Positions 3,881-21,739 of a stretch of 22,069 nt of DNA are shown here, in pieces. The notes under the pieces were generated by a model, which had not been told where the DNA came from, did no database searches, and saw only the letters and a list, made by a program, of their open reading frames with translations. This DNA is from a virus. Location of the stretch: the IMG/VR virus record IMGVR_UViG_3300030060_003110, positions 20,813-42,881 of that record; one strand, 5' to 3'. The translations under genes were made by a program, and so were the position numbers. Positions within the stretch are counted from its first letter, which is position 1, and each line of letters begins with the position of its first letter.

Positions 3881-5191
3881 TCAATCCAAGAAATAAACTA
3901 AATCGCCTTTGCCTTTCAAAATATCCATCGCTTCTTTACGAAGTATATCATATTTTTCTTTAGTAGAAATATTACCACCCGATTCTGTAATTAGAATACT
4001 TTGGTCATCATGTCGTATAATTTCCGATGCTGCTAATTTTGTTGTTGCTTCGTGAATAGCAGAAGGAACTCTATTATCTCCAGCAATATATGAAACAATA
4101 ACTGAATTGTTTCTATGATAAGGATAGTCCTTTAAAAAGAAAATACGCCCTTCTTCATTAATTGTCCAATAGTCGCCAAGCCTTCTTAAATCCTCTTTAT
4201 CTGTAAATGCTTCTAATGTGCAAACAGTTGGAATTTGACTAGTAGTAGCAAATGTCAGATTTCCTGAAAATGCGCCTCCCGTTGTAGCATGAGTTAAAAC
4301 AACAGTTGTTGAATCAGTAATAGAAGCAATTGTAGCGGCAGAAGGAACATTAGCACTTCTTTCACCACTTATTGTCATCCCTACTGCTAATTTACTAGAA
4401 TCAGCAACGGTGAGATTAACTGAGTTATTACCTGAAGTAGCCTGTTTTATGGTAGCCTTAAGAATACAATCAGCCCCATCATCGCCCGAAAGTAGGGATG
4501 AGAAGAGGATTTGCTTGCCATTTGACTTAGCCTTTGCTGCATAGAAAAAGTCTGAAATGGATAAATTAGATTGAGAGAGGCTTTTTGGAGCAGTTGCACC
4601 AGTAAATTGAGACATTGAAGGAAATGATTCGTTTACCAAAGAGATGATTTCTTCATTGGTTGTTTTGATACCAAAGGTATTATTGAATTCATCGTTTGCT
4701 AAATCAGTCAAATCGTTTTCTGCAAGCATCTCAAAAGACACACCGCTATTTGGTAATTGAAGAATAATAGAATTTAAGTCTCTAAAGTTATCAAGTAAAG
4801 TTATTTTTGCTTGAGCCGATGCAATTTCAATATACTGGCTTCCTTGCCATAAAAGTAGAGAAACAATCTTTCTTACTTTCATTTTGGTTAATTGCACAAA
4901 ACCAACATGACCGCCATAATATGCCTTGTGTGGCAGGTGAGAAAATTCAAAGTTATGATACTCGTCCTTTGTGATAATTGGACGGTATGAACGCTTTACC
5001 TTGTCATCAACGATTCCTTCAACCCTTTTGATGATTGACCCGATTTGAGCCAATGTAGGGTATGTTGATGCTGAAAAAGCAGGAACTTGGAGTAAATTAG
5101 CAACCTCAGTAGCATTTGTATAGAAGCCCCGACCTTGAGAATAATCAGGATTAATTTCTGTAAAATCGCTTGGTGAGATTGTTTGACCCAT
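3881..5191 (-). CDS. Head-tail adaptor with inserted Ig-like domain
   Basis: Residues about 25-75 (ATEVANLLQVPAFSASTYPT, then IIKRVEGIVDDKVKRSYRP) match the helical start of gp6/gp15-type adaptors, which bind beneath the portal. The C terminus returns to helix (HEATTKLAASEIIRHDD, YDILRKEAMDILKGKGD). Between them, about residues 245-320, sits a beta insertion with VNLTVADSSKLAVGMTISG and ITDSTTVVLTHATTGG. This pattern is widespread in phage decoration domains. At about 436 residues it is far longer than a bare adaptor of 100-200. A TTG at 5203 and GTG at 5200 are possible starts, but the ATG at 5191, six bases after GGTG, is preferred. That puts the start just after the stop of the preceding gene. 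Confidence 0.65.
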   Translation of the reverse strand: MGQTISPSDFTEINPDYSQGRGFYTNATEVANLLQVPAFSASTYPTLAQIGSIIKRVEGIVDDKVKRSYRPIITKDEYHNFEFSHLPHKAYYGGHVGFVQLTKMKVRKIVSLLLWQGSQYIEIASAQAKITLLDNFRDLNSIILQLPNSGVSFEMLAENDLTDLANDEFNNTFGIKTTNEEIISLVNESFPSMSQFTGATAPKSLSQSNLSISDFFYAAKAKSNGKQILFSSLLSGDDGADCILKATIKQATSGNNSVNLTVADSSKLAVGMTISGERSANVPSAATIASITDSTTVVLTHATTGGAFSGNLTFATTSQIPTVCTLEAFTDKEDLRRLGDYWTINEEGRIFFLKDYPYHRNNSVIVSYIAGDNRVPSAIHEATTKLAASEIIRHDDQSILITESGGNISTKEKYDILRKEAMDILKGKGDLVYFLD

Positions 5192-5192
5192 T

Positions 5193-6806
5193 TTAGACAC
5201 CAATCATTCTCTTTAATTTTCTCACATTCTTTTTGAGTTTATTTGAGTAAGAAACCATACTTCTGTTTTGCCTTGAGCGAGAACCGCTTAGGTTGTATTC
5301 GCCATGCTTCCTCGCTTCAAATGTTAATTCGACATATGCCTCTTTAAAAGCCTCTTTAATGTTATCAGCACGAACAGTTTCGGCTTTTACTTTTTCTTTA
5401 CCAAATTCAGCAGACTCTTTTGTTCTTTGAACTCCAGTATCTCCAACCTCATAATATCTAATTTCAGACTTATAATCATCTTTTTCTTCTCTTGGCAATT
5501 TAGCATATTCTTCTTCAGAAATAAATATTTTATTTCCATCTTCATCTTTTTTTGTCTTGTGGCTAAATGCTCTCTTAGATTGTTCATCAACCATTTGTTG
5601 AGTTACAGGTTTTCCTGTTTCCATTTCTATTAAATCTTCTGCTGCGGTAGCAAACTCTCTATATGTTGGTTCTGTTTTCTTTTTAGTTCTAATATTTCCA
5701 ATGACCTTAAAAGAATAAACTTCATCAGGAACAACTAAAAATGGATTTAATATTCTCATAATAATATTTTTGACTCCTTCATCTTTGAAGAAACCATCAA
5801 TTGTTCCTGCCCCATCTCCTTCAAATTCAAGATATGCTTGTTTTGCTGATTCTCCTTCAGGAGTATAGTTAAATGTATAATATTTATCCCCAATTTGAAT
5901 AATATCTTCATCTCTCATTCTATCTGTTCTGTTTAAATCATCTGTTGCGGCTTGAACAACCAAATTGTTTATTTCATCATCGGTGCTTTCAGAAATTGGA
6001 ATTTTATCTCCTACTGATTCAAATTCACCATCTTCATTTAATTTGGCTTCTATAACATAATTATCTTGTGCAGATAGTTTGTCTAACTGTTCTAAAACAG
6101 ATTCAGGAATATTAAAAGAATAATCAATTACTTCTTTTCCGATGATTGTTTTTGTATTACTTGGTCGATACCCTGCTTCTTGACCTGTTGTTTCTAAGAT
6201 ATAATCTGACTTTACCTTTTCTAAATCACCATAATCAAAATTCGGAAATATAGCCTCAATGTGTCCTTTAAGGCCACTTCGGGCAGGTTGGTGAGAGTAA
6301 TTAAATCTATCATTAAATTTTGCGTGTTCTCTAAAAACAAAGTCAAAGGCAATTCGAGGTTCTTTTCCATACGCTGAAAAGAAATCCTCAAAGTCAAAAT
6401 TAGGTAGTTTGGTTTTACCTCCACGAATAAAGGAAACATCTGTTCCTTTTAATCTACCGAGAACCCTTGCGTTAGTAATATCTTTAACTTTTTTATCTTC
6501 AATAAAGGAAAGATTTGCTTCATTAGGACTTTTATCTCTCTTACGAGAAAATATTTTCCATGAATCAGTATCTCTTTCTAAGATAGGCTTTAATGGTTCA
6601 TCAAGAACTTTTTCTAAAATTTTAGTTAATTCGCTCTTTAATGCAGCACTATTTGGCTCACTTTCTTCTACACTTTCAATAGCCTTTCTCATTTTACGAC
6701 GAAATTCTTTATCGCCATTAAGAATATAATCTTTCATTTGGGTTTCAATAAAAGACGCTGAACGGGGCAAACTAAGAGTCTGCTTACCCCAGTTAAAATT
6801 AACCAT
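5193..6806 (-). CDS. 537-aa unknown protein between head and connector genes
   Basis: This is a mixed alpha/beta protein starting MVNFNWGKQTLSLPRSAS. It has a Lys/Glu-rich middle (residues about 400-470) and a strongly basic C terminus (KLKKNVRKLKRMIGV). The ATG at 6806 has an ideal GAGGTGA, which overlaps the previous gene's stop (TGAGGTGA). Placement just before the adaptor suggests a minor capsid, connector or internal virion protein, possibly touching DNA through the basic tail. No conserved motif was recognised, and I would not assign an enzyme activity. Confidence 0.6.
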   Translation of the reverse strand: MVNFNWGKQTLSLPRSASFIETQMKDYILNGDKEFRRKMRKAIESVEESEPNSAALKSELTKILEKVLDEPLKPILERDTDSWKIFSRKRDKSPNEANLSFIEDKKVKDITNARVLGRLKGTDVSFIRGGKTKLPNFDFEDFFSAYGKEPRIAFDFVFREHAKFNDRFNYSHQPARSGLKGHIEAIFPNFDYGDLEKVKSDYILETTGQEAGYRPSNTKTIIGKEVIDYSFNIPESVLEQLDKLSAQDNYVIEAKLNEDGEFESVGDKIPISESTDDEINNLVVQAATDDLNRTDRMRDEDIIQIGDKYYTFNYTPEGESAKQAYLEFEGDGAGTIDGFFKDEGVKNIIMRILNPFLVVPDEVYSFKVIGNIRTKKKTEPTYREFATAAEDLIEMETGKPVTQQMVDEQSKRAFSHKTKKDEDGNKIFISEEEYAKLPREEKDDYKSEIRYYEVGDTGVQRTKESAEFGKEKVKAETVRADNIKEAFKEAYVELTFEARKHGEYNLSGSRSRQNRSMVSYSNKLKKNVRKLKRMIGV

Positions 6807-6816
6807 TTATTTCACC

Positions 6817-7476
6817 TCACATGAGCCATTTTGCCCAAGCAGCACCCTTTTGAATTGCTGAACCTAAACCTAAACCGCTTTGCGGTGGTTCATAACTCAT
6901 TTGTCCTTGAGCATCAATCCAGTAAGGACGGCCATATCCATCTGTTCCATTTGGAGGAATAGGATAACCTGAACCATTATTCATAGCACCCTGCATTTGA
7001 GCATATTGTTGCTGATTACCAGTTAATCCTGCAATTGCTCCTGCGGCAGTAGGTTGGGTTATTTGTTGTATTCCGCTACCACCAAAACCTTGAGATTCAA
7101 GATATTGTTGCTTTGCCATCTTTCTTTGCATAATAACTTCGGTATTGATAGCCGATTGCAATAATTTTTGAATGTCTAAGTCAATATTTTCTTGAGTAAT
7201 TCTTTCATATTCTCTCATAGAGTCAGGATTCACAGAAATAATGTTTCCGTTTTGACTAAATGCTAATTTAGCCAGCATTTGAGAAACTACTCTTTCAACA
7301 ACATCTTCCATTAACTTTTCAAGAGCAACTAAAAATTGTTCTCCGTGATATTGAAAAAACTCTTCAACATGATTTTCTTGTAAAGATAATAAATTATTTA
7401 CTGTCTTAAATTGTGCGTCTCCTTGTGCTTGAACTGCGCCTAAAACAGTTCCATTACTTGTTCCTAAAATTCCCAT
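6817..7476 (-). CDS. Gln/Gly-rich protein of the GTPase cassette, unknown
   Basis: The 219-aa protein has two parts. The N-terminal ~125 residues are helical (LLSLQENHVEEFFQYHGEQF, then VALEKLMEDVVERVVSQMLAK). The C-terminal ~95 residues are low-complexity Gln/Gly/Ala/Pro with Tyr (GYPIPPNGTDGYGRPYWID), ending in a short hydrophobic helix AAWAKWLM. The start at 7476 follows AAGGAGGC, overlapping the stop of the zinc protein. The low-complexity half could be a flexible tether or fibre-like region, and the last helix might contact membrane. No family is recognised. Confidence 0.55.
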   Translation of the reverse strand: MGILGTSNGTVLGAVQAQGDAQFKTVNNLLSLQENHVEEFFQYHGEQFLVALEKLMEDVVERVVSQMLAKLAFSQNGNIISVNPDSMREYERITQENIDLDIQKLLQSAINTEVIMQRKMAKQQYLESQGFGGSGIQQITQPTAAGAIAGLTGNQQQYAQMQGAMNNGSGYPIPPNGTDGYGRPYWIDAQGQMSYEPPQSGLGLGSAIQKGAAWAKWLM

Positions 7477-7478
7477 GT

Positions 7479-8159
7479 TTATGCCTCCTTAACTAATTCT
7501 TCTTTTCCTTCTTCTTGCGGTAATTCATTTAGTGCTTGAACATTATGCTTAAGCATTAAATGATTGAGTCTTTCTGTCATAATATTTATTTCTGTAATCA
7601 AACGAATGACTTCATCCGTTGCCGTCTTTGAATCTCCTAATGCGGGTGGGGTTATAAACCATCCTGCTGATGTAAGGCTCATAACATCTTCTTTGCTTAA
7701 AGTTTTAATTGGCCCACCTTTAAGAATTTTAGGCATTCGTGGTTTAAACGAACTAAATTCTAAACCATGCTTATCTGCAAGTATTTGTTGTTGTAGCATT
7801 TCTAATTGAACATAAATAGAAGCGTGTTTAGGACAATAAGTTCCCATTAGTGGTCGTCCTTTTGTTACACCATCTAAAGGCATTGGTGGGCGCATATAAT
7901 CACCTTGTTCCCAAATATGATGAAAACCACAAACAACACACCTATCTTTAAGATTAAACTTTTTTCCATACTTAATGCCTAAGAACTTCTTTGGTTCTGC
8001 TTTTAAAACCAATTTAAGTTCTTTTAGTTGAGCCTTTGGTTTAAATGAAATAAACTTGTATTCTTGCACAACACCGCTTGCTCTTGCCTGTTGAAGTGGC
8101 GAAAGCGTCGGATTAAATTGTTGTGGTGCAGTTTGTCCTATAATGTTGTTTTGATACAT
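7479..8159 (-). CDS. Zinc-binding (CxxC...CxxH) protein next to the GTPase
   Basis: This 226-aa protein has one likely zinc site: C74-x2-C77 with H80/H81 close by (DRCVVCGFHHIWEQGD), and C109-x2-H112 (TYCPKH). Residues 33-70 are Lys-rich. The C-terminal ~60 residues form a helix with a Leu repeat (ITEINIMTERLNHLMLKHN). It starts five bases after the GTPase stop, so the two are almost surely co-translated. It could be a structural zinc protein of the virion or an adaptor for the GTPase. No enzyme signature is visible and no family is recognised. Confidence 0.6.
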   Translation of the reverse strand: MYQNNIIGQTAPQQFNPTLSPLQQARASGVVQEYKFISFKPKAQLKELKLVLKAEPKKFLGIKYGKKFNLKDRCVVCGFHHIWEQGDYMRPPMPLDGVTKGRPLMGTYCPKHASIYVQLEMLQQQILADKHGLEFSSFKPRMPKILKGGPIKTLSKEDVMSLTSAGWFITPPALGDSKTATDEVIRLITEINIMTERLNHLMLKHNVQALNELPQEEGKEELVKEA

Positions 8160-8164
8160 AATAA

Positions 8165-8833
8165 TCAGTAATCCTTTATCATTGTGGTAATTCCTCTATA
8201 AACCATTTCGGGGTCAGATTTTGCAGATACAATATATTTGAAACATGGTATTCCTTTATCGTTTAACTTTCTCATACCGTATTTGAATGGTTCAAAAATC
8301 TCATGTTTATCTATTTCTTGGCCTTCTGCTAATGGATATTTTTTACCCCAAATATCATATTTATTTGCCCAAATACCTACTGCCATTGGATAATCAGATT
8401 CTCTTTTCTTTTTTCCATTTGACCATCTTTTTGAAATTATTGAATCAACTAAAAATTTCCATGCTAATTGGTGGTCTAAATTAATTTCATTATCTAAATG
8501 TCGGTGGTCAATCATAAAAACAACGTATTTTACTCTTCGGTTTTGCATATCTTTTTCCCATTCTTTCCAGTAAATTGCTTCTCCACCAATATCTGCACTT
8601 CTTACTGTATGGGAATTACCATCTATTTTAACATTTTTTCTCGTTGCTCTATGTCGCCCAACAGTTCTATCGTTAATTTGCGGAACTTCTCCTCTTGTTC
8701 TTAATTGATGACTTAATGTTGTTTTACCAACCATTGTTGCTCCATAGACTCCAAAATTAATAGCGTGAACTTTTTTGTAAAATCCTATAATTGCTTCACC
8801 GACAAGAATAGCAAATCCTGTCATTAATGACAT
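8165..8833 (-). CDS. Membrane-linked Arf-like small GTPase
   Basis: All core GTPase motifs are visible, numbered from the ATG at 8833. The P-loop is GATMVGKT (31-38). A switch-I Thr candidate is T57 in DRTVGRH. The Walker B/switch II is ADIGGE (80-85), the Arf/Sar/G-alpha form of DxxG, with Glu where Arf has catalytic Gln. G4 is ANKYD (156-160) and G5 is SAK (203-205). Residues 2-20 (SLMTGFAILVGEAIIGFYK) form a hydrophobic or amphipathic helix before the first strand, as in Arf proteins or the anchored SR-beta. The frame reaches a GTG at 8845, but the ATG at 8833 follows GGTGGGGG and overlaps the previous stop as TAATG. Such a switch inside capsid genes is unusual. A role in membrane attachment, remodelling or assembly is inference. 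Confidence 0.8.
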   Translation of the reverse strand: MSLMTGFAILVGEAIIGFYKKVHAINFGVYGATMVGKTTLSHQLRTRGEVPQINDRTVGRHRATRKNVKIDGNSHTVRSADIGGEAIYWKEWEKDMQNRRVKYVVFMIDHRHLDNEINLDHQLAWKFLVDSIISKRWSNGKKKRESDYPMAVGIWANKYDIWGKKYPLAEGQEIDKHEIFEPFKYGMRKLNDKGIPCFKYIVSAKSDPEMVYRGITTMIKDY

Positions 8834-9051
8834 TAATGCCCCCACCCATTGAGAAGGTTATCAAATAACCAACCCATAATATTAATATCAAAAACACCTA
8901 AAATATTTCCGATTAGAAAACCTGAAAGACAGATACAAGAACCCCAAAAAAGCATTCGCATCTTCAAAAAGAAAATGTCTGCTGAATGCGCTCTTTGTTG
9001 ATTATAAGCATAATCTGAATCAGAAAAGCCCATTATGTCGCCAAAGACCAT
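8833..9051 (-). CDS. 72-aa single-span membrane protein
   Basis: The N terminus is polar (MVFGDIMGFSDSDYAYNQQ) and is followed by a positive stretch and a hydrophobic span at about residues 33-54 (MLFWGSCICLSGFLIGNILG). The tail, DINIMGWLFDNLLNGWGH, is partly amphipathic and Trp-bearing. The ATG at 9051 has GGCGGTGAAAG upstream. The stop overlaps the GTPase ATG (TAATG), so production of the two is coupled one to one. It could be a membrane partner of the GTPase, a holin-like protein or an integral virion protein. No family is recognised. Confidence 0.6.
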   Translation of the reverse strand: MVFGDIMGFSDSDYAYNQQRAHSADIFFLKMRMLFWGSCICLSGFLIGNILGVFDINIMGWLFDNLLNGWGH

Positions 9052-9062
9052 TCTTTCACCGC

Positions 9063-9446
9063 CTATTGTAGTGCGGCTAAGAACTCATTACCAACGCTAT
9101 TCTCTTCTTCTTGTTGAACAGGTTGATAAAAGGAAGTGTTGTATTGTTTTGCACTTTCACGCATCTTTTGTCGTTGTTGTTCATCTCTAGCCTTTCTTTC
9201 CCAGTATGCCGCAATTTTACGGTCTAAGAGCCAAAGTTCAATTCTATCATTGAGTGATAAATCAAAGATTGCTTTCATAACCATAATTGCACCAATTGTT
9301 CCTAAACCAAATAAAACAGAATGGGCTAATGGGCCATATGGGAAATTCATTCCAAATGCCGCATATGCCCAAACATTTGTTCCGCTTAATGCACCGACAA
9401 ATAGAATTGTCATAATTAGACGAGTATCTTGACTTAATGCTGCCAT
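9063..9446 (-). CDS. 127-aa protein with two membrane spans and a charged tail
   Basis: Two hydrophobic segments, about residues 10-32 (LIMTILFVGALSGTNVWAY) and 40-64 (AHSVLFGLGTIGAIMVMKA), form a hairpin. They are followed by a long charged helix (RKIAAYWERKARDEQQRQKM) and a polar tail. The topology, with two spans and a charged C terminus, is compatible with a holin, a membrane anchor or a scaffold for the GTPase. The ATG at 9446 follows GAGGTGTTTAA, which contains the stop of the preceding gene. It is the first of three consecutive genes encoding membrane-associated products. The function is not recognisable from sequence. Confidence 0.6.
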   Translation of the reverse strand: MAALSQDTRLIMTILFVGALSGTNVWAYAAFGMNFPYGPLAHSVLFGLGTIGAIMVMKAIFDLSLNDRIELWLLDRKIAAYWERKARDEQQRQKMRESAKQYNTSFYQPVQQEEENSVGNEFLAALQ

Positions 9447-9455
9447 TTAAACACC

Positions 9456-9776
9456 TCAAGCAAATTCGACTGAAACTGCTGCGCCTGTTCCTGCACCAGT
9501 AGATATTTCTAAGTATAGTCCATTAGAAGCAATTACACCATGCATATCAAATTCAAATGTTGAACTGTTATAAAGTGTTGGGTCGGCTGGATTAGGGGCT
9601 TGAAGGATTATTCTTGCTAATTCTTTACCACTTGCGGCACTATCATTATCAAATACCTTAACAGTAGTTACTCCTGTTGTTCCAGTATATTGAGCATGAA
9701 TGCTAATTAATTTACATCGTTCACTAGAAACTACTGCACTTGACGTTAATACTCCACTACTTCTGCAACTTGGCAT
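9456..9776 (-). CDS. Small beta-sandwich virion protein (decoration-like)
   Basis: The 106-aa protein is beta-rich, with the pattern ISIHAQYTGTTGVTTVKVFD and a closing GLYLEISTGAGTGAAVSVEF. This pattern is common in small surface proteins of marine tailed viruses, where a two-sheet fold decorates the head or a fibre. Cys4 and Cys21 lie near the N terminus. The gene is third after the capsid gene. The ATG at 9776 follows GAGTGAT. The stop is embedded in the ribosome binding site of the next gene (TGAGGTG). Confidence 0.55.
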   Translation of the reverse strand: MPSCRSSGVLTSSAVVSSERCKLISIHAQYTGTTGVTTVKVFDNDSAASGKELARIILQAPNPADPTLYNSSTFEFDMHGVIASNGLYLEISTGAGTGAAVSVEFA

Positions 9777-9837: not shown

Positions 9838-10158
9838 TTATTCAGTCAAAGACGACTTTTTGCTCTTAGCAGGGGCTTTCTTGGTTTTAGGCTTAGCGGG
9901 AAGAAGATATGCACACAGTTTATCGTGTGTATCTAAATCCCTGCCTAAAGCCTTCCCTAATCGAGTTAAGATAGATGGGTCAATTTGCTTCAATTCTTTT
10001 CTCTCACTTTCAGCAAAAGAAATATCAAGGCAATTATCACCTAAATACCGTAAAGCGTCTTGAACAGGAACATCTAAAGAAATATTCCTCGCCAATAACT
10101 CTCCATTGACAAAGAGCGTTTTTGCTCTTGAACCTTTGGTTAGTTTAATTGTTGCCAA
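9838..10158 (-). CDS. 106-aa protein with Lys-rich tail, unknown
   Basis: It starts with TTG at 10158, supported by TGAGGTGTTTTAA just upstream, with no ATG near the N terminus. The N-terminal part is a small beta region (IKLTKGSRAKTLFVNGELL). The middle is helical (DPSILTRLGKALGRDLDTHD) and the last ~18 residues are Lys/Ala/Pro-rich (KPKTKKAPAKSKKSSLTE). The tail could bind DNA inside the head or the negatively charged capsid interior. It is co-transcribed with the capsid and decoration genes, so a virion or assembly role is likely, but no family is recognised. Confidence 0.5.
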   Translation of the reverse strand: MATIKLTKGSRAKTLFVNGELLARNISLDVPVQDALRYLGDNCLDISFAESERKELKQIDPSILTRLGKALGRDLDTHDKLCAYLLPAKPKTKKAPAKSKKSSLTE

Positions 10159-10514: not shown

Positions 10515-11867
10515 TCAAAGAAGATTGGTAATCTTTCCTTGACCCTTAAAGTAAGAACAACCAGTTTCACCCATTGTTCGATAAAGAGCCTTGTTTCCGA
10601 GATTACCAACACCAAATGGGTTTCCGTTGCTGATACCATCTTCAAAGTATTGAGTCGGCTTCATAACAGATAGCCACAAATGGTCAGTATCAAGGAAAAG
10701 CATATCGCTGATTTGACTTGAGTTATTACCAGTTGAAGGCATAGCGGCAACAGGAATCAAAGGAATGTCGTAATAGGTAGAAACACGGAATCCGACTTCT
10801 GCACCCTTAACACCACGAACACCGTTCACAGTAGGAACAATCTCTTTTCTATCCATGAATCGCTCTTGAGCCTGTAATAAGTCAGAAAGCGTTTGAAGCG
10901 TATCATATCCAGTAAGAATAACCTTTGGAGAACCACCTGCAACACGGAGTCTGCGAACCATATCGTTAATAACAGTAAGCGTCAATTGTCGTGCTTCTGC
11001 TGAAAGGTAGCCATCACCGAAAGAAACTTCTGCATCCAAATACTCGTTGCCTGATGCACTTCGGAGTTTTCCGTAAAGAGTGTCAATTTGTTGGTCAGAA
11101 GCAGAATCAACAAGGTTTCCACCAGAATTGTCAGCCAATTCAGTAATTTCTGCGGAGTTACTTACAATCTTGTAAAGAGAAGTATATCCTCTATCAATAG
11201 CATTTGCTGTGTTATATGCCGTAGTCGGAGAATAGTTCTCTAATGGCATAACAAGCATTGAATTTTGAACTTCTGCGTGATGCTTGCCCATATCTTCTCT
11301 TAATTGAGCACGAATATCACCAATACCATCATCAATTTGAGCCATTTCCATAGCCAATTCGCTGAATGCGAATTGATGAGCAATAATCTTTGGACTGGTG
11401 AATAGTGTGTCGTATTCAGGAGCAATTGATTGAAGTCCGTCTGCATCCGAATCTAATGAGGCATTTTCAGGAACACCACCAATTCGGTCTGCTCTCAAAG
11501 CATCAGCACCATAAAGTGCAGTATTGAGAGTAGTGTTTGAAGCGGCAGAAATGTCCAAAAAGTTTCCTGCTCCACCAGCAGGTCGCTTCTTGAGGATTCT
11601 CCAACCACTTGAAGAATAAGGACGCTTTGCGATAACAGATAATGCGTTGCATTCTCGGTTTAGCATAGACCAAACCTTTTGACCGTAAATCTTATTGTAA
11701 AGATTTGCGTTAATTCCTGATGGGTCGCTTAATGCTCCATCGTGAGCGACATGAATGCCACTTACTGTTCCTGCGGCCTTTAGCAATTGATTGCTAATAT
11801 GCCCAGTAGCGTTTGTTCCATATGTTTGTGCTTCTAAATCTGCAATTGTGTTAATATATCCAACCAT
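10515..11867 (-). CDS. Major capsid protein, HK97 fold
   Basis: This 450-aa protein follows the protease-scaffold gene. Features that fit the HK97 shell fold are an N-terminal arm region, a long helix (LTVINDMVRRLRVAGGSPKV) before a conserved KVILTGYDTLQTL strand-turn, and a P-domain-like end. The end contains LFLDTDHLWLSVMKPTQYFE and a Cys/Gly-rich terminus. It lacks a long N-terminal delta domain, in keeping with a separate scaffold. It would form the icosahedral head by hexamers and pentamers after scaffold removal. The ATG at 11867 has GAGGTGATTTAAC, the strongest signal type in the window, matching the high expression expected. The family is assigned from order, size and patterns. Confidence 0.85.
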   Translation of the reverse strand: MVGYINTIADLEAQTYGTNATGHISNQLLKAAGTVSGIHVAHDGALSDPSGINANLYNKIYGQKVWSMLNRECNALSVIAKRPYSSSGWRILKKRPAGGAGNFLDISAASNTTLNTALYGADALRADRIGGVPENASLDSDADGLQSIAPEYDTLFTSPKIIAHQFAFSELAMEMAQIDDGIGDIRAQLREDMGKHHAEVQNSMLVMPLENYSPTTAYNTANAIDRGYTSLYKIVSNSAEITELADNSGGNLVDSASDQQIDTLYGKLRSASGNEYLDAEVSFGDGYLSAEARQLTLTVINDMVRRLRVAGGSPKVILTGYDTLQTLSDLLQAQERFMDRKEIVPTVNGVRGVKGAEVGFRVSTYYDIPLIPVAAMPSTGNNSSQISDMLFLDTDHLWLSVMKPTQYFEDGISNGNPFGVGNLGNKALYRTMGETGCSYFKGQGKITNLL

Positions 11868-11878
11868 GTTAAATCACC

Positions 11879-12550
11879 TCAAAGGTTTCCTCCAACCATC
11901 TTATGAATGTCAGCCCAATCCATTTCGGCTAATTCATCCATTGTAGGGAGATTGATAGTGGCTTCTTCTTGAGCCTTTAGAATTGTTTCCTTCTCAGCCG
12001 TCAAAGACTTTCGGAGGGAAGCAAATTCATTCTTAAGAGAAGCAATTTCGCTTTGTGCATCATATTGAGCCTTAGCGAGAACACTCTCTCTTGAAGAGGT
12101 TTCAGCCTTGAACCTGTGTTCAAACTGCTTTTGAAGGTTATCGTAAGCCAACTTTTCAAGTTGTTCTTGACGGAAAGCCTCGTAAGCCTTCTCAATGTTT
12201 CCAACAGACAAATCAAGAGTTTCTAACTCATTGTTGTCGAATGCCTTAACAACTGGTAAATCAGATGCTCTCGGCTTTCCGTTGTCAATAACGATTCTAT
12301 CAGCAGGTTCGCCAATTTCGACACCTGCTCCATCAACGGTAGAAACGTAGGCTTTGGCTTCATCATCCATGTATTCACCCATGCCTTTTTCATCCATCAT
12401 CTTTTCATCGTCCATGTTTTCTTCATCGTCCATAGCCATGCCCTTTTCTTCATCCTTCATGTCCATGCTTTCTTCTTCTTCTTTTCTTAGCATATTGACT
12501 TCTTCCATAAGAGCGTCAAGTTCTGCCAATGCTTTTTCTATTTTGGTCAT
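11879..12550 (-). CDS. Internal in-frame start producing separate scaffold protein
   Basis: Inside the protease gene, AGGTGA lies five bases before an in-frame ATG (codon 185, 12550-12548), exactly at the junction between the protease domain and the scaffold helix. The product (MTKIEKALAELDALMEE and onward) would be a free scaffold of 223 residues. Lambda and related phages use the same design, with the scaffold (Nu3) translated from within the protease gene (C) so that scaffold greatly outnumbers protease. The spacing and strength equal those of the best starts in this window. Confidence 0.6.
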   Translation of the reverse strand: MTKIEKALAELDALMEEVNMLRKEEEESMDMKDEEKGMAMDDEENMDDEKMMDEKGMGEYMDDEAKAYVSTVDGAGVEIGEPADRIVIDNGKPRASDLPVVKAFDNNELETLDLSVGNIEKAYEAFRQEQLEKLAYDNLQKQFEHRFKAETSSRESVLAKAQYDAQSEIASLKNEFASLRKSLTAEKETILKAQEEATINLPTMDELAEMDWADIHKMVGGNL

Positions 12551-13102
12551 TTTGTTCACCTTTTTTGTTTTTTCTTGCTTTAAAATATCAAATCTTGCTT
12601 CTGGATTAATTCCTTTTTCACAAATTGTTACTTCATGTAATTCTAATTTACTTATTTCATTGTATTGTCCTAATTCTTGGTGGGTTTTCTTTACTTTTTC
12701 TAAAGCCTGTCCTCCAATACTAAAACTCCTCAATGAACCTTTTCTAATGCCTCTATTAATTTCTTTGGCTTTTTCTATATCGTCTCTTAATTTAATAACT
12801 ACGAAGAATCCTACATCATCAACTTCTGTTTTAAACAATCTCCCTGATTTATCTCGGTATGATTCTACTACTTCTCCGACTTGAACATTAGAATGATTAG
12901 TCATTACATTTCTAAATTTGGGGTTCTCCATATATTTGTTTACCGCTTCTTTGAGGGCTTTGAGTGTGATTAAATCATTTTGCTTATCAACGATTTCAAT
13001 GCTTGCATATCCTCCAATCATTAAATCGTCTTGGCTCTTGAGAATCCTGAAATCCGAAGTGTTGTTTCGCATCACCGCAGAAGTCATTCTTCTCAATCCC
13101 AA
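11879..13102 (-). CDS. Prohead protease fused to scaffold (XkdF-like)
   Basis: Residues 28-170 form a herpes-type (S78-like) prohead protease. The start is GGYASIEIVDKQNDLI, the His motif is VMTNHSNVQVGEV (H70), the Ser motif is SLRSFSIGG (S128 the likely nucleophile) and the third residue region is LELHEVTI (H156/E157). Residues 185-407 are scaffold-like. They comprise a helix, a Met/Asp/Glu-rich linker (about 213-247), a long coiled coil (303-380) and the C-terminal tag MDWADIHKMVGGNL. The protease would remove scaffold during head maturation. The TTG at 13102 opens the frame, but the ATG at 13087 (MTSAV) is a good alternative. A TATA box lies 16-23 bases upstream of 13102. Confidence 0.85.
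   Translation of the reverse strand: MGLRRMTSAVMRNNTSDFRILKSQDDLMIGGYASIEIVDKQNDLITLKALKEAVNKYMENPKFRNVMTNHSNVQVGEVVESYRDKSGRLFKTEVDDVGFFVVIKLRDDIEKAKEINRGIRKGSLRSFSIGGQALEKVKKTHQELGQYNEISKLELHEVTICEKGINPEARFDILKQEKTKKVNKMTKIEKALAELDALMEEVNMLRKEEEESMDMKDEEKGMAMDDEENMDDEKMMDEKGMGEYMDDEAKAYVSTVDGAGVEIGEPADRIVIDNGKPRASDLPVVKAFDNNELETLDLSVGNIEKAYEAFRQEQLEKLAYDNLQKQFEHRFKAETSSRESVLAKAQYDAQSEIASLKNEFASLRKSLTAEKETILKAQEEATINLPTMDELAEMDWADIHKMVGGNL
12556..12561 (-). promoter_or_regulatory. Internal ribosome binding site for the scaffold
   Basis: The sequence AGGTGA precedes ACAAA and ATG within the protease reading frame. It is complementary to the CACCT of the 16S rRNA 3' end. The surrounding codons are Lys/Val/Asn-rich linker, so the motif is not forced by a conserved domain. 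Similar strings do occur by chance elsewhere in Glu-Gly-Glu coding stretches, but seldom with a well-spaced in-frame ATG. Confidence 0.55.
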
Positions 13103-13132: not shown

Positions 13133-15679
13133 CTATTCTTCAGTAGGAAGGGGTAATTTGTTATACCTATCTTCATAAATATTCCATTTTCCTTCATCTC
13201 CCTCTTTATCAGCAGGAGTTTGTTTGAATCCAGTCCATGCAAGCCACATTTTTTCTCCATCCACATCTAAGACTCTATAATGCATTTTAGTTTCAAACTT
13301 GTTTCCTTCTAAGAAATATTCATGGTAGCCGTCTCTTTGAATACCTAATCTTATTTTACCAGAATCGACAACCTTTCCTTTAGTTACAGTTTTTGCTACT
13401 TCTGCTGGATATTTACCAGCAGCCCCGAATAAATCAAACATCTCTTCTTCATTCTCAATATCAATTGTCCAAAACATATTTTCTGTCTTTAATTTAATTG
13501 CTAATGTTAAGTTATCATCTTCTCTAGCATATAATTTAAATTCACCTTCTCTTAATTCAGGAGGTGTTTTATATTCACCTTCAACGAGTTTAATATCTTC
13601 TTTCATGATTTCTTCTTCCTGCATAATTTTATCATCATCAGCAGAAATTTTACCATTCTTTTCACTAATGCCATCTCTAAGAATTATCCACTTCTTTAAC
13701 TTCTTTACATCAGATTCAAGAACATCTTCGTATAAATCTTTATGTTCTTTCACTAAAAAGTTATGCAGTTCTTTAGGAGTTTTATCTCCCCTTTCTTTTA
13801 AGTGCTGAAAAGAAGCCACAGTCAAATCGCTTTGCTTAGACTTCATAATATCAATCGCTTGTTGTTTCCACATATCTAAATCCATTGTAGCATTCTTAGA
13901 CATTAAATTATCTTCTTCATATCCATAAATAGTAAAGCCATCCAAATCATATTTGATAATTACATTGGCTTCTCCATGAATATGGTCTGTTATTTTAACA
14001 CCTTTTGTAAATGCCTCAACATCATAATTAAGAGACTTCTTAGTATCTTGAGATAATAATTCTAAAGTTACGAGTTTATCAGGATATTCTACTTCAGGAA
14101 TCTCAATAGGCTTTGCTGAGAATAAACTAAAACCATCTCCTTTCTTTTTAACTTCATCAACCTTTACTCGAATAATTTCTCCAACATCAACTGAAATTTT
14201 AGTATTCAATGCTTTGCCTACATTTAAATAATGTCTCTTATCTATTTCAACAGCACCAGTCATTTCTTCATCAACTGGCCCAACACCAACAGTATAAGAA
14301 TAAAGATTACTTTTTGTCTTTTTCTTTTCTAAAACAATAACATCTAAATCTACAAACTTCTTTAATTTAATCCACTTAGGATTTTTCTTTGTTCCGATGT
14401 AATATGTTGAAGTAGAATCTTTGATAACTACTCCTTCAGATGTAGGAATTTCCATCATTTCTTCGGCATACTTTTCAATATCCTTTAAGTTGTCTGCTTG
14501 ACGAGTATCTTTCTTTGATGGATAAGCAATCGCTTCTCCTGATTTAGCAGAATAATTGTTAAATAAAATTGTCATTCTATTTTCTAATTCTTCATCTGCT
14601 AATGTTTGTGCTTCATGTCGAATAATATCAAAAACATGGCATTTTAATTTAGCCTCTTTATATTTATCTTTAAATACATGAGCGATAGTATCGGCTCTAT
14701 GAAGAGGTTCATCCCCATCAAAGAGAACCAATTCGCCATCAAAAATACAATCACCGTATTCTTTCTTTTTTAATTCCTCAGTCTGTTCTTTACATTTATC
14801 AGAAATGTCCTTACCATTATAAGAATAAATAGTAACTTTATCGTCAATTTTATGTAATTGCACTCTCATGCCATCATACTTTTCTTGAACATACCAATTA
14901 CCACTAAAGCCCTTTAATTCTTCAATATCCTTAACTTCAAAAATTCTATACATTGGTTTATTAGGAATAATAAATTGAGAGATGGATTTTTTCTCATCAT
15001 TAGGAACAGACTTCTCTACTCCCTCAATATCTTTCAATTCTTCCCAATCCTTCTCTTCATTCTTAGAAAAGAAAATTAGTTCCAACATATCCATAGCAGC
15101 CTTTACTTTGGATTCGACCTTCTTTGAGTCTTTTCCATCCCCATAATGCTCAATAATATAGAGGGCTATGTCATCCGATTCTATGTCAAGTCCTCTAAGA
15201 CCCTCCGTAATTGTGTCGGGTTGCATCCCTTTAACGCTGTAAATGTCAGCAGATAGGGCTTTATTGTCATCCCTTAGAGCATAATGCACAAATTTAACCA
15301 TGCTTTCTGGATTATCCAGTAATTCTTCAAGGACATTATCCTTGAACATAGAAGCGAATGGGTCGGCAACAATAGAAGATGAATAGCGAAGCAATTTTAT
15401 TTTTTCATACAGTTCCTTCGCTTGTCTTGAAGTAGGGTCTTTTGTGTCCTTATCTTCTAAATCCTTCTCATCAATGAAGTTTCTCATTTCCTTTCCTGCG
15501 GCATCTGATTCTTCATATGATTCAGTAATCATATCAACCGCTTTACGCCAACGACCCGAATATTCTGTTGGGTCGTGAATAGCAGATAAATAGGCTACTC
15601 TTGTCTTTTCAAATAGACGAAGAATTTCTTGGGAAGGTTGCTTATCCTTCTCAATAGAAGCCAATTTCATACGAATCAT
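13133..15679 (-). CDS. ATP-dependent DNA ligase with long terminal extensions
   Basis: The 848-aa enzyme carries the nucleotidyltransferase motifs in order: I EKYDGMR (K267 the adenylated Lys), III IFDGELV (312-318), IIIa HVFDII (348-353), IV EGVVIK (415-420) and V WIKLKK (436-441). An OB-fold region follows to about 530. It would seal nicks using ATP. Residues 1-250 are helical and are not an evident ligase DNA-binding domain. Residues about 712-820 faintly resemble the LigD 3'-phosphoesterase fold (GKVVDSGKIRLGI, then HEYFLEGNKF, MWLAWTGFK) but lack its catalytic His pair, so that activity is unlikely. The ATG at 15679 overlaps the previous stop (ATGA). Placement between portal and protease genes is unusual for a replication enzyme. 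Confidence 0.85.
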   Translation of the reverse strand: MIRMKLASIEKDKQPSQEILRLFEKTRVAYLSAIHDPTEYSGRWRKAVDMITESYEESDAAGKEMRNFIDEKDLEDKDTKDPTSRQAKELYEKIKLLRYSSSIVADPFASMFKDNVLEELLDNPESMVKFVHYALRDDNKALSADIYSVKGMQPDTITEGLRGLDIESDDIALYIIEHYGDGKDSKKVESKVKAAMDMLELIFFSKNEEKDWEELKDIEGVEKSVPNDEKKSISQFIIPNKPMYRIFEVKDIEELKGFSGNWYVQEKYDGMRVQLHKIDDKVTIYSYNGKDISDKCKEQTEELKKKEYGDCIFDGELVLFDGDEPLHRADTIAHVFKDKYKEAKLKCHVFDIIRHEAQTLADEELENRMTILFNNYSAKSGEAIAYPSKKDTRQADNLKDIEKYAEEMMEIPTSEGVVIKDSTSTYYIGTKKNPKWIKLKKFVDLDVIVLEKKKTKSNLYSYTVGVGPVDEEMTGAVEIDKRHYLNVGKALNTKISVDVGEIIRVKVDEVKKKGDGFSLFSAKPIEIPEVEYPDKLVTLELLSQDTKKSLNYDVEAFTKGVKITDHIHGEANVIIKYDLDGFTIYGYEEDNLMSKNATMDLDMWKQQAIDIMKSKQSDLTVASFQHLKERGDKTPKELHNFLVKEHKDLYEDVLESDVKKLKKWIILRDGISEKNGKISADDDKIMQEEEIMKEDIKLVEGEYKTPPELREGEFKLYAREDDNLTLAIKLKTENMFWTIDIENEEEMFDLFGAAGKYPAEVAKTVTKGKVVDSGKIRLGIQRDGYHEYFLEGNKFETKMHYRVLDVDGEKMWLAWTGFKQTPADKEGDEGKWNIYEDRYNKLPLPTEE

Positions 15680-16217: not shown

Positions 16218-16463
16218 TCACTCCATCTTTGAAACCATCTTGTGAATTTCCGACCAATCCATACTTGAAACATCAGTAGTAGGTAATGAATCCATACCAC
16301 CGACTGTATTATCAATAGCAGGTGTAGGGCTTTGAGAAACAACTAAACCTGCCTTCATTAAAAGGCTATCTTTTGCATAAATGGTCTTTTCCAATGCTTC
16401 AACCTTAGCAGTTAAAGCCTTAATGATTTCTAATACGTCTTTGTTAATACTTTCTTCTGTCAT
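16218..16463 (-). CDS. 81-aa coiled-coil protein with scaffold-like C-terminal tag
   Basis: Residues 8-30 form a short coiled coil (LEIIKALTAKVEALEKTIY). A flexible Ser/Pro/Thr linker follows, then the C terminus SMDWSEIHKMVSKME. The final segment is almost identical to the scaffold's end (EMDWADIHKMVGGNL), and both are preceded by LPT and an Asp. The linker-plus-tag layout suggests that the tag docks to a common partner, most simply the capsid protein. The gene overlaps its predecessor by ATGA, and the ribosome binding site AAGGAGGAAAAG is strong. No known family is recognised. Confidence 0.65.
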   Translation of the reverse strand: MTEESINKDVLEIIKALTAKVEALEKTIYAKDSLLMKAGLVVSQSPTPAIDNTVGGMDSLPTTDVSSMDWSEIHKMVSKME

Positions 16464-18444: not shown

Positions 18445-18669
18445 TCAAAATGGAATGTTTTCTTTCTTTCCTCTTTTCTTAGAGGGTAATAGAATAACAT
18501 CGGGGTTATCTGCCGAAGAAGGTAAAGCCTTATGAGAAGTATCTGGTGGTAATCCGACAGACATATCTCGGTTTTTCTTTACTTTATTATTTTGTTGTGC
18601 AGTTAAAGCCTTTACTTGGGCTAATTCTTTTGTTAATCTTCTTTGCTTTTGGTTTAAATCTTCGCTCAT
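18445..18669 (-). CDS. 74-aa basic protein downstream of the portal, unknown
   Basis: The small protein has a helical N terminus (MSEDLNQKQRRLTKELAQVK) and a disordered Pro/Ser tail ending KKRGKKENIPF. Its ATG overlaps the stop of the preceding gene (ATGA) and its stop overlaps the ribosome binding site of the next. No motif is recognised. It is more likely a real gene than chance because of the tight overlaps on both sides. Confidence 0.5.
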   Translation of the reverse strand: MSEDLNQKQRRLTKELAQVKALTAQQNNKVKKNRDMSVGLPPDTSHKALPSSADNPDVILLPSKKRGKKENIPF

Positions 18670-18947
18670 ATTGTTGCCTCCATTAAATTACCTTGTGTGC
18701 TTTCTAAAATTTGAATAAGTTCTTCTCTTGACATTTGACCAATTTTATCCATAACGGCATCCATTAAATCTTCTCTTGTCATTTCAGCCAATTCGTCTAG
18801 TTCTTCCCCAAACATAGAATCAAATTCAGGTTCATCTGTTCTCCCTACTGGAGCAATATTAGGCTTTCCACCAGCAATTCTAGTTTGTGGTTTCTTTCTT
18901 TGCCTTCTATCTTGCATATTCTTTAATATTACTTCTCGCCAATCCAT
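18666..18947 (-). CDS. Small acidic-basic protein with N-terminal DWREVILK motif
   Basis: The protein begins MDWREVILKNMQDRRQRKK. It then has a basic, Gly/Pro-rich linker and an acidic helical C-terminal half (EELDELAEMTREDLMDAVMD, then REELIQILESTQGNL). A TTG at 18956 could extend it by three residues, but the ATG at 18947, just after the portal stop, is simpler. The N-terminal motif matches the C-terminal tag of the scaffold in its MDW..I/V..K core. The acidic half resembles small assembly chaperones. No family is recognised. Confidence 0.55.
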   Translation of the reverse strand: MDWREVILKNMQDRRQRKKPQTRIAGGKPNIAPVGRTDEPEFDSMFGEELDELAEMTREDLMDAVMDKIGQMSREELIQILESTQGNLMEATI

Positions 18948-18948
18948 T

Positions 18949-20589
18949 TTAACCAACTCTTCTTTCTGTTCTTTTATCGTTGTTTTGATTTCCAGCGTCT
19001 AACGGCAATCCCGACATTCGCTTATCGGGTGCTACGTTCATCGAGGGTTTATTTCTTGTGGTCGCAGGGTTCTCCTGTGGCTTGCTTCCGCCCTGTAAAG
19101 CCTGTTCTTGCATTTGTCCCATTTGTGAAGCATCAATGTTTGTTCCTGCATAGGGGTCAGTTTCAGTTTTTCCTTCTTCTCCCTGTCCTTCAGGCGGTGC
19201 TTCGGGTTCAGGCTTCTTAAAGGTAAATTGACCATCTTCATCCATATCAACCTCAAAGCCTAAATTCTTTGTTGATGCAGCAATATTGACTTCAATCTCA
19301 CGCTTACGAAGAACAGCAATTTCATCCTCTTCTTCGCTTGGAGGTAGTTTTAAATTCCAATCTGTAATACCAAATTGTTTTACAAGGAATGGGAAAACAT
19401 AATTATTATAGACAGTCTGTGCTTTTTGAACGGCTCTATTTGTAACAAGAATTTGCATACCTTCATTGTTTAATCCACCGCTTGTAGTATTATCAGCCAT
19501 GAATACCTTGCTTACACCATAAAATGCTGAGATTCTATCTCTCAAATCATCTTTAACAGACACATAATCCATCTCTTTTAGACTGTCCATGAATTTAATC
19601 CATTCAACCGCACCTTTCCCTCCTTCTGCTTCAATTCCCATAACAGGAATAAAGTGAGGGTCGGCCTCCATCTTTTCTTTTACTGAACGCCAAAAGGAAC
19701 GCATTGAATCCATATTTCTGGTTTGAACTGCAAGTAATCCTCTTGGCATTCTACTCTTAGTATATGATTGATTAACATAGTTTTCCATAGCAATAAGAGT
19801 CATAATATTGTTAAATAAAGTAATAACTGGAGACATACCATAAAGACGAGAAGGACTGTATTTACTAAAATGTAGCACTTCTCCTTTCAAAAAGTGCTGG
19901 TCATCTCCATTTACTCTATTTACATAGTGAATAGGGAATAAATGACTATTACAAATCTCACACTTTTCATGTGGGTCTTTGTGAATAACACCACGATGAT
20001 TTACACAAGTAAAACCTTTTGTTCCTCTTTGTCCATTCTCATCGCTATAAATAAACATAGTAACGGGGTCGCCACGATAAACTTCTTTAATACGATGCAT
20101 TCTAATTTTACCATTACCATCAATAAAGTATTCTTTAACAAGAACAATGTAAGCATCATCCATAATGTTTAAATCATCTTCAAGTTCCTGTAATACATCA
20201 ATAAATAACTGCTCGGATTTATTAACATACCCTTCAATAAACTTTTCAGCATATTCTAATTGCTTAACATCAGGAATTTTAAGGTCAGCACTTTCACAAC
20301 GAGAACATTCTTGAACTGGTCTTTTATGTTCTTTACCACAGTTATTACATCGTGCTTCATATGCTTTTTCCCAAACATATCCTCTTCTAAATACTTCTTG
20401 TTTTAATTGAGTAATACAAGTCCTTGCAATAACTGATTGATTAACGATATTGTAGATAATTGGGCCAGTCATCATGTGATTGGTTTCTCTTTCTTGAATA
20501 CCCATGTTGTAGACTTTTCTATCAGCAGGTTTGGGAGTTTGTCTCCTAAACAAGTTAGTGATACTAAATCTTCTTTTTTCTTCAACCAT
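18949..20589 (-). CDS. Portal protein with two zinc knuckles
   Basis: The 546-aa protein carries portal-like patterns: YGMSPVITLFNNIMTLIAM (the stem/helix region), LKEMDYVSVKDDLRDRIS, and YGVSKVFMADNTTSGGLNN followed by a helix. The latter is typical of portal crown/wing regions. Two zinc sites are visible: C81-x2-C84 with C95-x2-C98, and C195-x2-H198 with C210-x2-C213. Most portals have none. The C-terminal ~80 residues are disordered (Gln/Gly/Pro). It forms the dodecameric DNA channel at one vertex and binds the terminase, whose gene is not in the window. The ATG at 20589 follows GGGGGTCTGATTC. Confidence 0.85.
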   Translation of the reverse strand: MVEEKRRFSITNLFRRQTPKPADRKVYNMGIQERETNHMMTGPIIYNIVNQSVIARTCITQLKQEVFRRGYVWEKAYEARCNNCGKEHKRPVQECSRCESADLKIPDVKQLEYAEKFIEGYVNKSEQLFIDVLQELEDDLNIMDDAYIVLVKEYFIDGNGKIRMHRIKEVYRGDPVTMFIYSDENGQRGTKGFTCVNHRGVIHKDPHEKCEICNSHLFPIHYVNRVNGDDQHFLKGEVLHFSKYSPSRLYGMSPVITLFNNIMTLIAMENYVNQSYTKSRMPRGLLAVQTRNMDSMRSFWRSVKEKMEADPHFIPVMGIEAEGGKGAVEWIKFMDSLKEMDYVSVKDDLRDRISAFYGVSKVFMADNTTSGGLNNEGMQILVTNRAVQKAQTVYNNYVFPFLVKQFGITDWNLKLPPSEEEDEIAVLRKREIEVNIAASTKNLGFEVDMDEDGQFTFKKPEPEAPPEGQGEEGKTETDPYAGTNIDASQMGQMQEQALQGGSKPQENPATTRNKPSMNVAPDKRMSGLPLDAGNQNNDKRTERRVG

Positions 20590-20882: not shown

Positions 20883-21013
20883 TTTGATTCACCCATTCCT
20901 TTTGGTCTGTCGTGTGCAATCCAACATAGTTCGCAGAAACTAAATGGCATTTGTCCTTCAATATAACAAATACCACAATAAATAAAATTATGATTTCCTA
21001 ATTGTTTCAACAA
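20879..21013 (-). CDS. 44-aa zinc-ribbon protein
   Basis: A short frame starts at TTG 21013 (or 21010) and ends at TGA 20879. It encodes two Cys pairs, C13-x2-C16 (IYCGICYIEG) and C27-x2-C30 (SFCELCWIAH), the classic layout of a single zinc ribbon. AAGGTGGAA lies immediately upstream of the start, inside the end of the DUF6321-like gene. Its stop overlaps the next ATG (ATGA), so it sits correctly in the operon. It could bind nucleic acid or stabilise a complex. Confidence 0.65.
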   Translation of the reverse strand: MLKQLGNHNFIYCGICYIEGQMPFSFCELCWIAHDRPKGMGESK

Positions 21014-21297
21014 TTCCACCTTCTTCGGGCGGCTCTTGCTTTTTCACTATAAGTGCCATCAGCCCGCTTAAATCCCCTTGACCTTGCACAAAAAGATTTA
21101 CGCCTTTTTGCTGCTTTACCGCCAGGTTTTAATTTACTTGGCTTTTTAGTAACTGGACGCTTTAAATTAGCACCAGTTTCTCTTTTAAATTTAGCACGGC
21201 CTTTCGCACTTAATCCACCAGTCTTTGCGTGAATCTTTTTGTTGTAGCCTTTGAAGGGCTTCTTTTTCTTTTTAAGAATCTCCTGCCATTCTTCCAT
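21007..21297 (-). CDS. DUF6321-like basic protein
   Basis: This 96-aa, extremely Lys/Arg-rich protein carries a pattern I recognise from marine virus and giant-virus proteins assigned to DUF6321: TGGLSAKGRAKFKRETGANL, then GGKAAKRRKSFCARSRGFK and the ending ARAARRRWNC. Its function is unknown; the charge suggests binding of DNA or RNA. The N terminus is MEEWQEILKKKKK, another Trp..ILK start. It follows the winged-helix-like gene closely and ends just after the zinc-ribbon start. Confidence 0.75.
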   Translation of the reverse strand: MEEWQEILKKKKKPFKGYNKKIHAKTGGLSAKGRAKFKRETGANLKRPVTKKPSKLKPGGKAAKRRKSFCARSRGFKRADGTYSEKARAARRRWNC

Positions 21298-21301
21298 TAT
21301 A

Positions 21302-21739
21302 TCATGCTCCTTGCATATTTGTTCCAGTTTGTCTTATAGAAGGTAAAGATGAAACTCCTTGTGAACCTATTGCACTTTTTGCTCGCTCAAGGTCTTGTTG
21401 AGTAATAGGTCTATTATAGAATTTATAGGCTGTTTTAATTTCCTGTTTAAGTCTTTTTCCATACTGTTTTACGGCTTGATTATATGCAAATTTTACATTA
21501 TCATCTTGGAATTTAATGCCAAACTTTTCAATATCTTCTGGTTTATGAGTGTAAATATCTCCATCTTCATGCATAAAGATTTTACCTTCCTTTCTTAACT
21601 TAGATAGGGTTTGTTTGATTTCTGCTTCTTCACCAAATTGCTTTAGGTTTTTCATACCTAATGCTCCGCCTTCTTTCTCAATCTCACTAAGAATTTTTGA
21701 TTCTAAATCTGCCTTTAAAATTGTTTTCCAATCATTCAT
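21302..21739 (-). CDS. Winged-helix-like protein with N-terminal DWKTILK
   Basis: The 145-aa protein starts MNDWKTILKADLESKI. Residues about 12-66 look like a small winged helix: a helix (ILSEIEKEGGAL), a helix (EIKQTLSKLRKEGKI) and a two-strand wing (FMHEDGDIYTH). The rest is helical with a disordered end. It may bind DNA or a protein partner. A GTG at 21748 could extend the frame, but AGGTGA five bases before the ATG at 21739 fixes the start. The ATG overlaps the stop of the phosphatase gene (ATGAATGA). Confidence 0.6.
   Translation of the reverse strand: MNDWKTILKADLESKILSEIEKEGGALGMKNLKQFGEEAEIKQTLSKLRKEGKIFMHEDGDIYTHKPEDIEKFGIKFQDDNVKFAYNQAVKQYGKRLKQEIKTAYKFYNRPITQQDLERAKSAIGSQGVSSLPSIRQTGTNMQGA

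Follow-up and report, generated by a model that had tools for sequence, protein, structure and literature searches.

A fixed five-gene block around a predicted small GTPase in the head module of magroviruses

One of the closest described counterparts of the viral locus considered here, a block of five genes with a predicted small GTPase at its centre, is the Arv system of Haloferax. According to the available part of its account, the small GTPase ArvA carries an N-terminal amphipathic helix and resembles Arf1, vesicles are lacking when ArvA is absent and overproduced when more of it is present, and ArvC, encoded in the same operon, is a zinc-ribbon protein (PMC10927574). The viral block lies in a stretch of 22,069 nucleotides (the window) of IMG/VR record IMGVR_UViG_3300030060_003110, a 42.9-kb fragment of 42,881 bases in full, and its genes, designated E, D, C, B and A, follow one another in that order, all in the same direction and on the minus strand, from position 9446 down to 6817 (Table 1). 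The likeness to ArvA-ArvB-ArvC, as far as the available text describes that system, comprises a GTPase annotated with PF01926 yet Arf-like, an amphipathic helix at its N-terminus, an operon gene for a zinc protein and a euryarchaeal setting (PMC10927574). In the virus as in the Arv operon, the gene for a helix-bearing GTPase is followed by that for a presumed zinc-site protein, here with A as the next gene, whereas the viral block differs in having two membrane-protein genes in front. This likeness to ArvA is one of description.

The reading favoured here, with a probability of about 0.38, is that of a late-gene block fixed in magroviruses around a virus-encoded Arf/ArvA-like GTPase that acts at the host membrane in assembly or exit. 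The GTPase C, made together with the head proteins, would in its GTP-bound state be held at the host membrane by the N-terminal helix, and D and E would provide a membrane platform. The putative zinc protein B and protein A would link or regulate this platform from the capsid side, in a complex that the proteins are supposed to form, and GTP loading and hydrolysis would lead to the docking of maturing virions at the host membrane, or to the reshaping of that membrane, during assembly or exit. The preliminary description had already suggested a membrane-docking or membrane-remodelling set; the Arf/ArvA-like N-terminal helix of C makes a membrane role plausible, while docking and remodelling stay at the level of prediction. 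To our knowledge, the exit route of archaeal tailed viruses is largely unknown, and a GTPase found throughout the sampled clade, conserved above the major capsid protein (MCP) and built like the membrane-bending switches of eukaryotes and Haloferax makes the question of egress testable.

The GTPase and its nearest relatives

The family of C was assembled as 79 non-redundant sequences with at least 58% identity to the window protein. The motifs known in small GTPases as G1 to G5 are invariant in all 79, as G31-x4-GKTT39, T57, D81-x-GG84, N157-K-x-D160 and S203-A-K205, and from these C should bind and hydrolyse GTP. With all five nucleotide-binding motifs and an alpha/beta G-domain fold in its model, C is predicted to be an intact small GTPase of the Ras superfamily. 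Pfam matches at E-values up to 0.01 were found to MMR_HSR1 in 69 sequences, Roc in 45, SRPRB in 19, Arf in 18 and Ras in 15, and 74 of the 79 matched NCBIfam small_GTP (TIGR00231) at the same threshold. The window protein itself falls below the curated cut-offs (19.9 versus 21.9 bits for PF01926, 20.8 versus 42.5 for TIGR00231), and one relative reaches that of PF01926. A PF01926 scan of ten near-complete contigs returned one match, the profile being too coarse for this family to inform on its presence.

An AlphaFold2 model built from a shallow alignment (27 sequences, at least 82% identity) reached a pLDDT of 43, and a broad alignment was used instead, with a pLDDT of 79.6 and a pTM of 0.78. 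Foldseek comparison of this model with the PDB placed Rab and Ras entries in the best rows, with E-values down to 1e-8. In VIA-align, Arf/Arl proteins led (Z 16.4-15.5) and the first 26 rows were all Arf/Arl entries or Arf complexes, with Gtr at 15.6, the Asgard protein HodArfR1 at 15.2, Ras at 15.1 and a mimivirus Rab at 14.8; the absence of a family from these matches does not exclude it. Arf/Arl is thus favoured as the nearest fold of the model, not separated from Ras and Gtr. The Arf/Arl/Sar group, including Asgard ArfR (8ouk), shares with C the best structural matches (Z 16.4-15.2), an N-terminal helix and the DxGG and NKxD motifs; in contrast, C has Ser2, a G5 motif of the form SAK, only 14-20% identity and a sequence family of its own, and Ras and Gtr are nearly tied as structural matches. 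Ser occupies position 2 in the window protein, as it does in at least 90% of the 79 sequences. N-myristoylation of Arf proteins requires Gly2, which is absent from some Arl and Sar proteins; because C has Ser2 and thus no N-myristoylation site, it was not assigned to the Arf family. The modelled helix spans residues 2-22, is hydrophobic and precedes the G domain; its mean hydrophobic moment is 0.35, and in 81% of the 79 proteins the moment exceeds that of shuffled sequences at p<0.1.

Small GTPases of the same fold are also encoded by eukaryotic giant viruses, whose Rab/Ras proteins are thought to be sporadic captures from their hosts, but these viruses infect eukaryotes. Among the best 50 rows of a BFVD search, the 49 named ones were eukaryotic giant-virus GTPases and other proteins, with no tailed virus, and one was unnamed. 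Relatives of C were not found in INPHARED phages at 1e-5. In the literature covered, no such small GTPase was found reported for tailed viruses, and no GTPase was found described for magroviruses, including in the available parts of PMC10160649 and PMC8651126, though an earlier mention may exist. The block would widen the range of small GTPases in viruses, as the named rows among the best 50 in BFVD are not tailed viruses. When GTDB genomes were scanned once for two patterns of conserved peptides, a single contig matched, NZMJ01000024.1, labelled Maricaulis. Because this contig carries all five block genes in the viral order, and a stretch matching the window protease, it is most likely a misbinned virus, and a cellular origin of the GTPase by way of it was rejected.

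Co-occurrence, breakpoints and conservation of the five genes

The five genes named in the preliminary description hold up at their positions: each relative whose sequence covers the region shows the reading frames, their order and the strongly conserved residues again, and the block is therefore not a product of chance. Spacing in the window is tight, with gaps of 11 bases between E and D, 5 between C and B, and 2 between B and A, and the ATG start of C (8833-8831) overlaps the TAA stop of D by one base. A longer frame of C with a GTG start (to 8845) was rejected, as matches in most relatives start at the internal ATG.

A sample chosen independently of the GTPase, the best 80 relatives of the MCP, was searched with profiles of the five proteins, and the whole row was judged only where at least 6.2 kb followed the MCP, for which 41 of the 80 loci were too short. 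All five genes were present in order in each of the 39 loci with enough downstream sequence. Among the MCP-sampled loci whose DNA suffices for a given gene, recovery was complete, with 55 of 55 for E, 51 of 51 for D, 45 of 45 for C, and 39 of 39 for each of B and A. Internal absence of a gene was seen in none of the 410 loci that carried at least two of six genes (428 loci in all, redundant and many from the same contigs). The five-gene row is a fixed core of the head module and not a cassette that is gained and lost. That its members would be gained and lost together had been put forward as a check on their common function; the five do always occur together and in order, but no loss was seen in the sample, so the check has no power and joint gain or loss cannot be shown from it.

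Insertions, counted when more than 180 bases separated neighbouring block genes, revealed where the row breaks. In MCP-sampled loci they occurred at E/D in 0 of 59 cases, at D/C in 6 of 56, at C/B in 11 of 50 and at B/A in 0 of 44. Two further samples, whose contigs overlap the other sets, gave 0/78, 16/78, 22/77 and 0/76 for the same four junctions in GTPase-sampled loci, and 0/67, 8/71, 18/65 and 0/60 in pattern-sampled loci. Because breaks fall only at the two flanks of C, the row divides into the units E-D, C and B-A, which on the favoured reading are probably three sub-units of one machine. The earlier argument from tight spacing to joint function thus holds for E/D and B/A, which are never split, but not for the GTPase and its neighbours, between which ORFs (open reading frames) are inserted at D/C and C/B; a function common to all five stays an inference.

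Identity was measured against the window proteins, with GTPase-sampled and MCP-sampled loci kept apart. Mean values in the former were 86% for C, 80% for A, 78% for E, 76% for D and for the MCP, 72% for B, 55% for the product of the neighbouring gene F and 43% for that of the variable 537-aa gene at the downstream border of the block; in the latter they were 65% for C, 61% for the MCP, 60% for A, 54% for E, and 50% for B and for D. C is the most constrained of the 16 genes compared, ahead of the MCP. At a coverage of at least 50%, the 537-aa gene was recognised in 28 of the 80 loci sampled by GTPase, a set that includes loci too short for it, and in 0 of 79 MCP-sampled loci, and gene 9838-10158 of the same module is often unrecognisable in relatives. 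The block is a conserved island amid variable genes, with C as its most conserved member.

Hydrophobic spans were called on the Kyte-Doolittle scale from the best-scoring 19 residues (score of at least 1.6; at least 1.2 for the second span of E). The first span of E was found in 30 of 31 proteins, as was the second, and the span of D in 25 of 27, and both are predicted to be membrane proteins. Alignment shows E as a two-span hairpin followed by a charged helix and a tail in which an FL close to the C-terminus never varies. In D, the residues just ahead of the span form an invariant RAHSAD motif, in a protein that elsewhere drops to 33% identity. In B, C74-x2-C77 and C109-x2-H112 are invariant, and these cysteines and histidine presumably form a zinc site. 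A consists of a conserved N-terminal region, a variable Gln/Gly-rich stretch and a conserved C-terminal tail (ending KGAAWAKWLM in the window), and 6 of 39 of its members weakly match PHROG 14074, a virion structural protein (best E-value 3.4e-4); matches of E to PHROGs were weak and scattered. No confident family was obtained for A, B or E, searched over alignments, or for the window D, and no confident relatives of A, B or E were found in the PDB by sequence, the one short, weak match of B (E-value 0.0065, 49 residues) being judged chance. Matches to GGDEF (A), Csm6 HEPN (B), Sak4 and further entries below cut-off were likewise rejected as chance.

Possible roles of the block

Several observations weigh against an Arf/ArvA-like GTPase that acts with its neighbours at the host membrane. 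Homologues of ArvB (DUF2073, PF09846) and ArvC (DUF2072, PF09845) were found in none of 11 magrovirus records, while Haloferax volcanii was positive for both, and a capture of ArvB or ArvC by the virus was rejected on these counts. The Arf rows are effectively tied with those of Gtr and Ras, lying within about 1 Z of them, and helix 2-22 is moderately amphipathic, with a median shuffle p of 0.06. Furthermore, the insertions on either side of C are compatible with a GTPase that is functionally separate, and stable co-occurrence could be explained by mere vertical inheritance of the head module. It is accordingly conceivable, although unlikely, that no joint function exists, the genes of the head module being inherited side by side while the GTPase serves elsewhere, in host takeover or as a chaperone of assembly or packaging. 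As no loss was ever seen, co-occurrence says little on function, and the breaks at both flanks of C fit this explanation; however, E/D and B/A are never interrupted, unlike the flanks of C, a pattern that speaks for two or more functional pairs, and other genes of the same module (the 537-aa gene and 9838-10158) are often unrecognisable in relatives. A more specific form of the membrane proposal, in which the GTPase with E-D and B-A would bud or dock virions in a vesicle-like exit, a non-lytic or membrane-assisted egress like the ArvA pathway, is similarly doubtful.

The block might instead belong to entry. A, D and E, and perhaps B, would then be virion proteins whose ejection creates a channel through the host membrane, a conduit such as that formed by gp7, gp16 and gp20 of P22, according to the available part of the source (PMC8402733). 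The location between head and adaptor genes fits this possibility, as do the Gln/Gly-rich composition and conserved tail of A and its weak virion structural PHROG matches. However, none of the five window proteins bears the terminal W-tag that is probably a mark of capsid cargo in the same genomes (see below), and virions would not usually be expected to contain a nucleotide-switch GTPase; such a role is considered improbable. Least probable among the alternatives is a timer of lysis or egress, with E as a holin-like two-span hairpin, D as its partner and the GTPase gating or timing the opening of the host membrane. E does combine a two-span hairpin with a charged tail, D would supply a second small membrane protein, and no other lysis gene was recognised among the window ORFs, where no search aimed at one was made. 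Against a timer, identity in E is high across the loop and soluble tail, and no holin family matched E at E-values up to 0.1, while 1 of 31 E proteins touches an Rz-like spanin family (E-value 0.033). We also know of no lysis cassette that includes a GTPase and two soluble partners like B and A.

Genomic setting and a terminal tag

By comparison with the ICTV profiles for the families Apasviridae and Aoguangviridae, the window is a contig of magrovirus type, that is, from a tailed virus of the marine archaea Poseidoniales. The profile of Magrovirales gives a genome of 90-110 kb, PolB, an ATP-dependent ligase, and head and replication modules that are oppositely transcribed. Relatives of the window were found on contigs of 92-97 kb, the window contains a ligase (PF01068), and PolB-like and ERCC4-like ORFs were recognised by eye on the opposite strand in the remaining part of the record. 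Magroviruses are widespread in the ocean and known from metagenomes only, according to the available part of one study (PMC10160649), and Aoguangviridae have no cultured member (PMC10768690). Upstream of the block lie genes for the MCP, an S78 protease, an ATP-dependent DNA ligase and a portal. The ligase (848 aa, 13133-15679) stands between portal and protease within the head module, a position kept in relatives. Gene F (9456-9776), earlier labelled decoration, had no family match in library searches, and its reading as a homologue of HVTV-1 gp123 was rejected, as no match was found.

Table 1. Features of the block and its surroundings (window coordinates, except for the last row)
Feature	Position	Strand	Basis or remark
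E, 127-aa predicted membrane protein, two hydrophobic spans	9063-9446	minus	ORF and hydropathy
D, 72-aa predicted one-span protein	8833-9051	minus	ORF and hydropathy
C, 222-aa predicted small GTPase	8165-8833	minus	motifs, predicted fold
B, 226-aa CxxC...CxxH protein	7479-8159	minus	alignment
A, 219-aa Gln/Gly-rich protein	6817-7476	minus	alignment
D/C junction, TAATG	8831-8835	minus	insertion site in relatives
C/B junction	8160-8164	minus	most used insertion site in relatives
Major capsid protein (SU10_MCP)	10515-11867	minus	PF17236, 26.3 bits (cut-off 24.1)
S78 prohead protease	11879-13102	minus	PF04586, E-value 3.2e-10; upstream of block; C-terminal W-tag ...MDWADIHKMVGGNL
Adaptor-type gene, homologue of HVTV-1 gp125	3881-5203	minus	BLASTP E-value 1e-7; phrog_17057 E-value 1.8e-13; downstream of block
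Variable 537-aa gene, downstream border of block	5193-6806	minus	recognition in relatives
N-terminal W-tag	ORFs 21302-21748, 21007-21297, 18666-18956		last: one-residue-longer form
C-terminal W-tag	ORFs 11879-13102, 16218-16463		protease; 81-aa protein
Tagged proteins in relatives, examples	L014:10675-11130, L022:9503-9997, L018:3814-4314		

The head module of HVTV-1 (Druskaviridae) resembles that of the window in its related MCP (25% identity to the window MCP), in its adaptor gp125, by homology to which the corresponding window gene is read as an adaptor, and in a one-span protein, gp124, encoded just before it. The relatedness of the MCPs agrees with the available part of an earlier report (PMC8651126). 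Four genes lie between MCP and gp125 in HVTV-1, the last of which, gp124 (L083:12214-12546), has one strong span; 8 records of the Druskaviridae group retain it. The claim of the preliminary description that membrane genes are not normally present at this place in tailed viruses is weakened by gp124. Because a one-span protein is present there and no P-loop was found among gp121-gp128 of HVTV-1, a membrane gene in this slot may be older than magroviruses, with the GTPase part added later. Homology of gp124 to E was rejected for want of hhalign support, and with no detectable relatedness between the two the idea of an older slot stays a suggestion.

ORFs inserted beside the GTPase mostly start with MWxxILK and come from many unrelated families: once their first ten residues are taken off, the tagged inserts still form 35 clusters (one is an MCP artefact), and synonymous codon differences occur within the tag at I, L and K. 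In five records with 553 called ORFs, W-x-x-[ILV]-[LIHMV]-K was found 51 times in the first 15 residues, 10 times near the C-terminus and 11 times internally (6.15, 0.90 and 0.11 per 1000 residues). Control motifs in which W was replaced by F, Y or L gave N-terminal counts of 1, 4 and 3. The C-terminus of the S78 protease also carries the motif. Among 151 distinct C-termini of this protease, 91 match strictly; in the other 60, the eight listed retain W and differ as IHR, VHR or LNR. Because the W-x-x-I-L-K tag is common to a protease that enters the prohead and to many small proteins, it is probably a capsid-targeting signal for packaged cargo. Internal proteins of T4 carry a similar capsid-targeting signal. 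The tagged inserts could be effectors delivered along with the genome. Apparent HExxH metalloproteases, GNAT acetyltransferases and a nucleotidyltransferase were noticed among them by eye (L014:10675-11130, L035:10675-11136, L049:10684-10971, L061:5224-5511 and L015:9706-9996), and Pfam supports a GNAT assignment in 2 of 74 tagged inserts.

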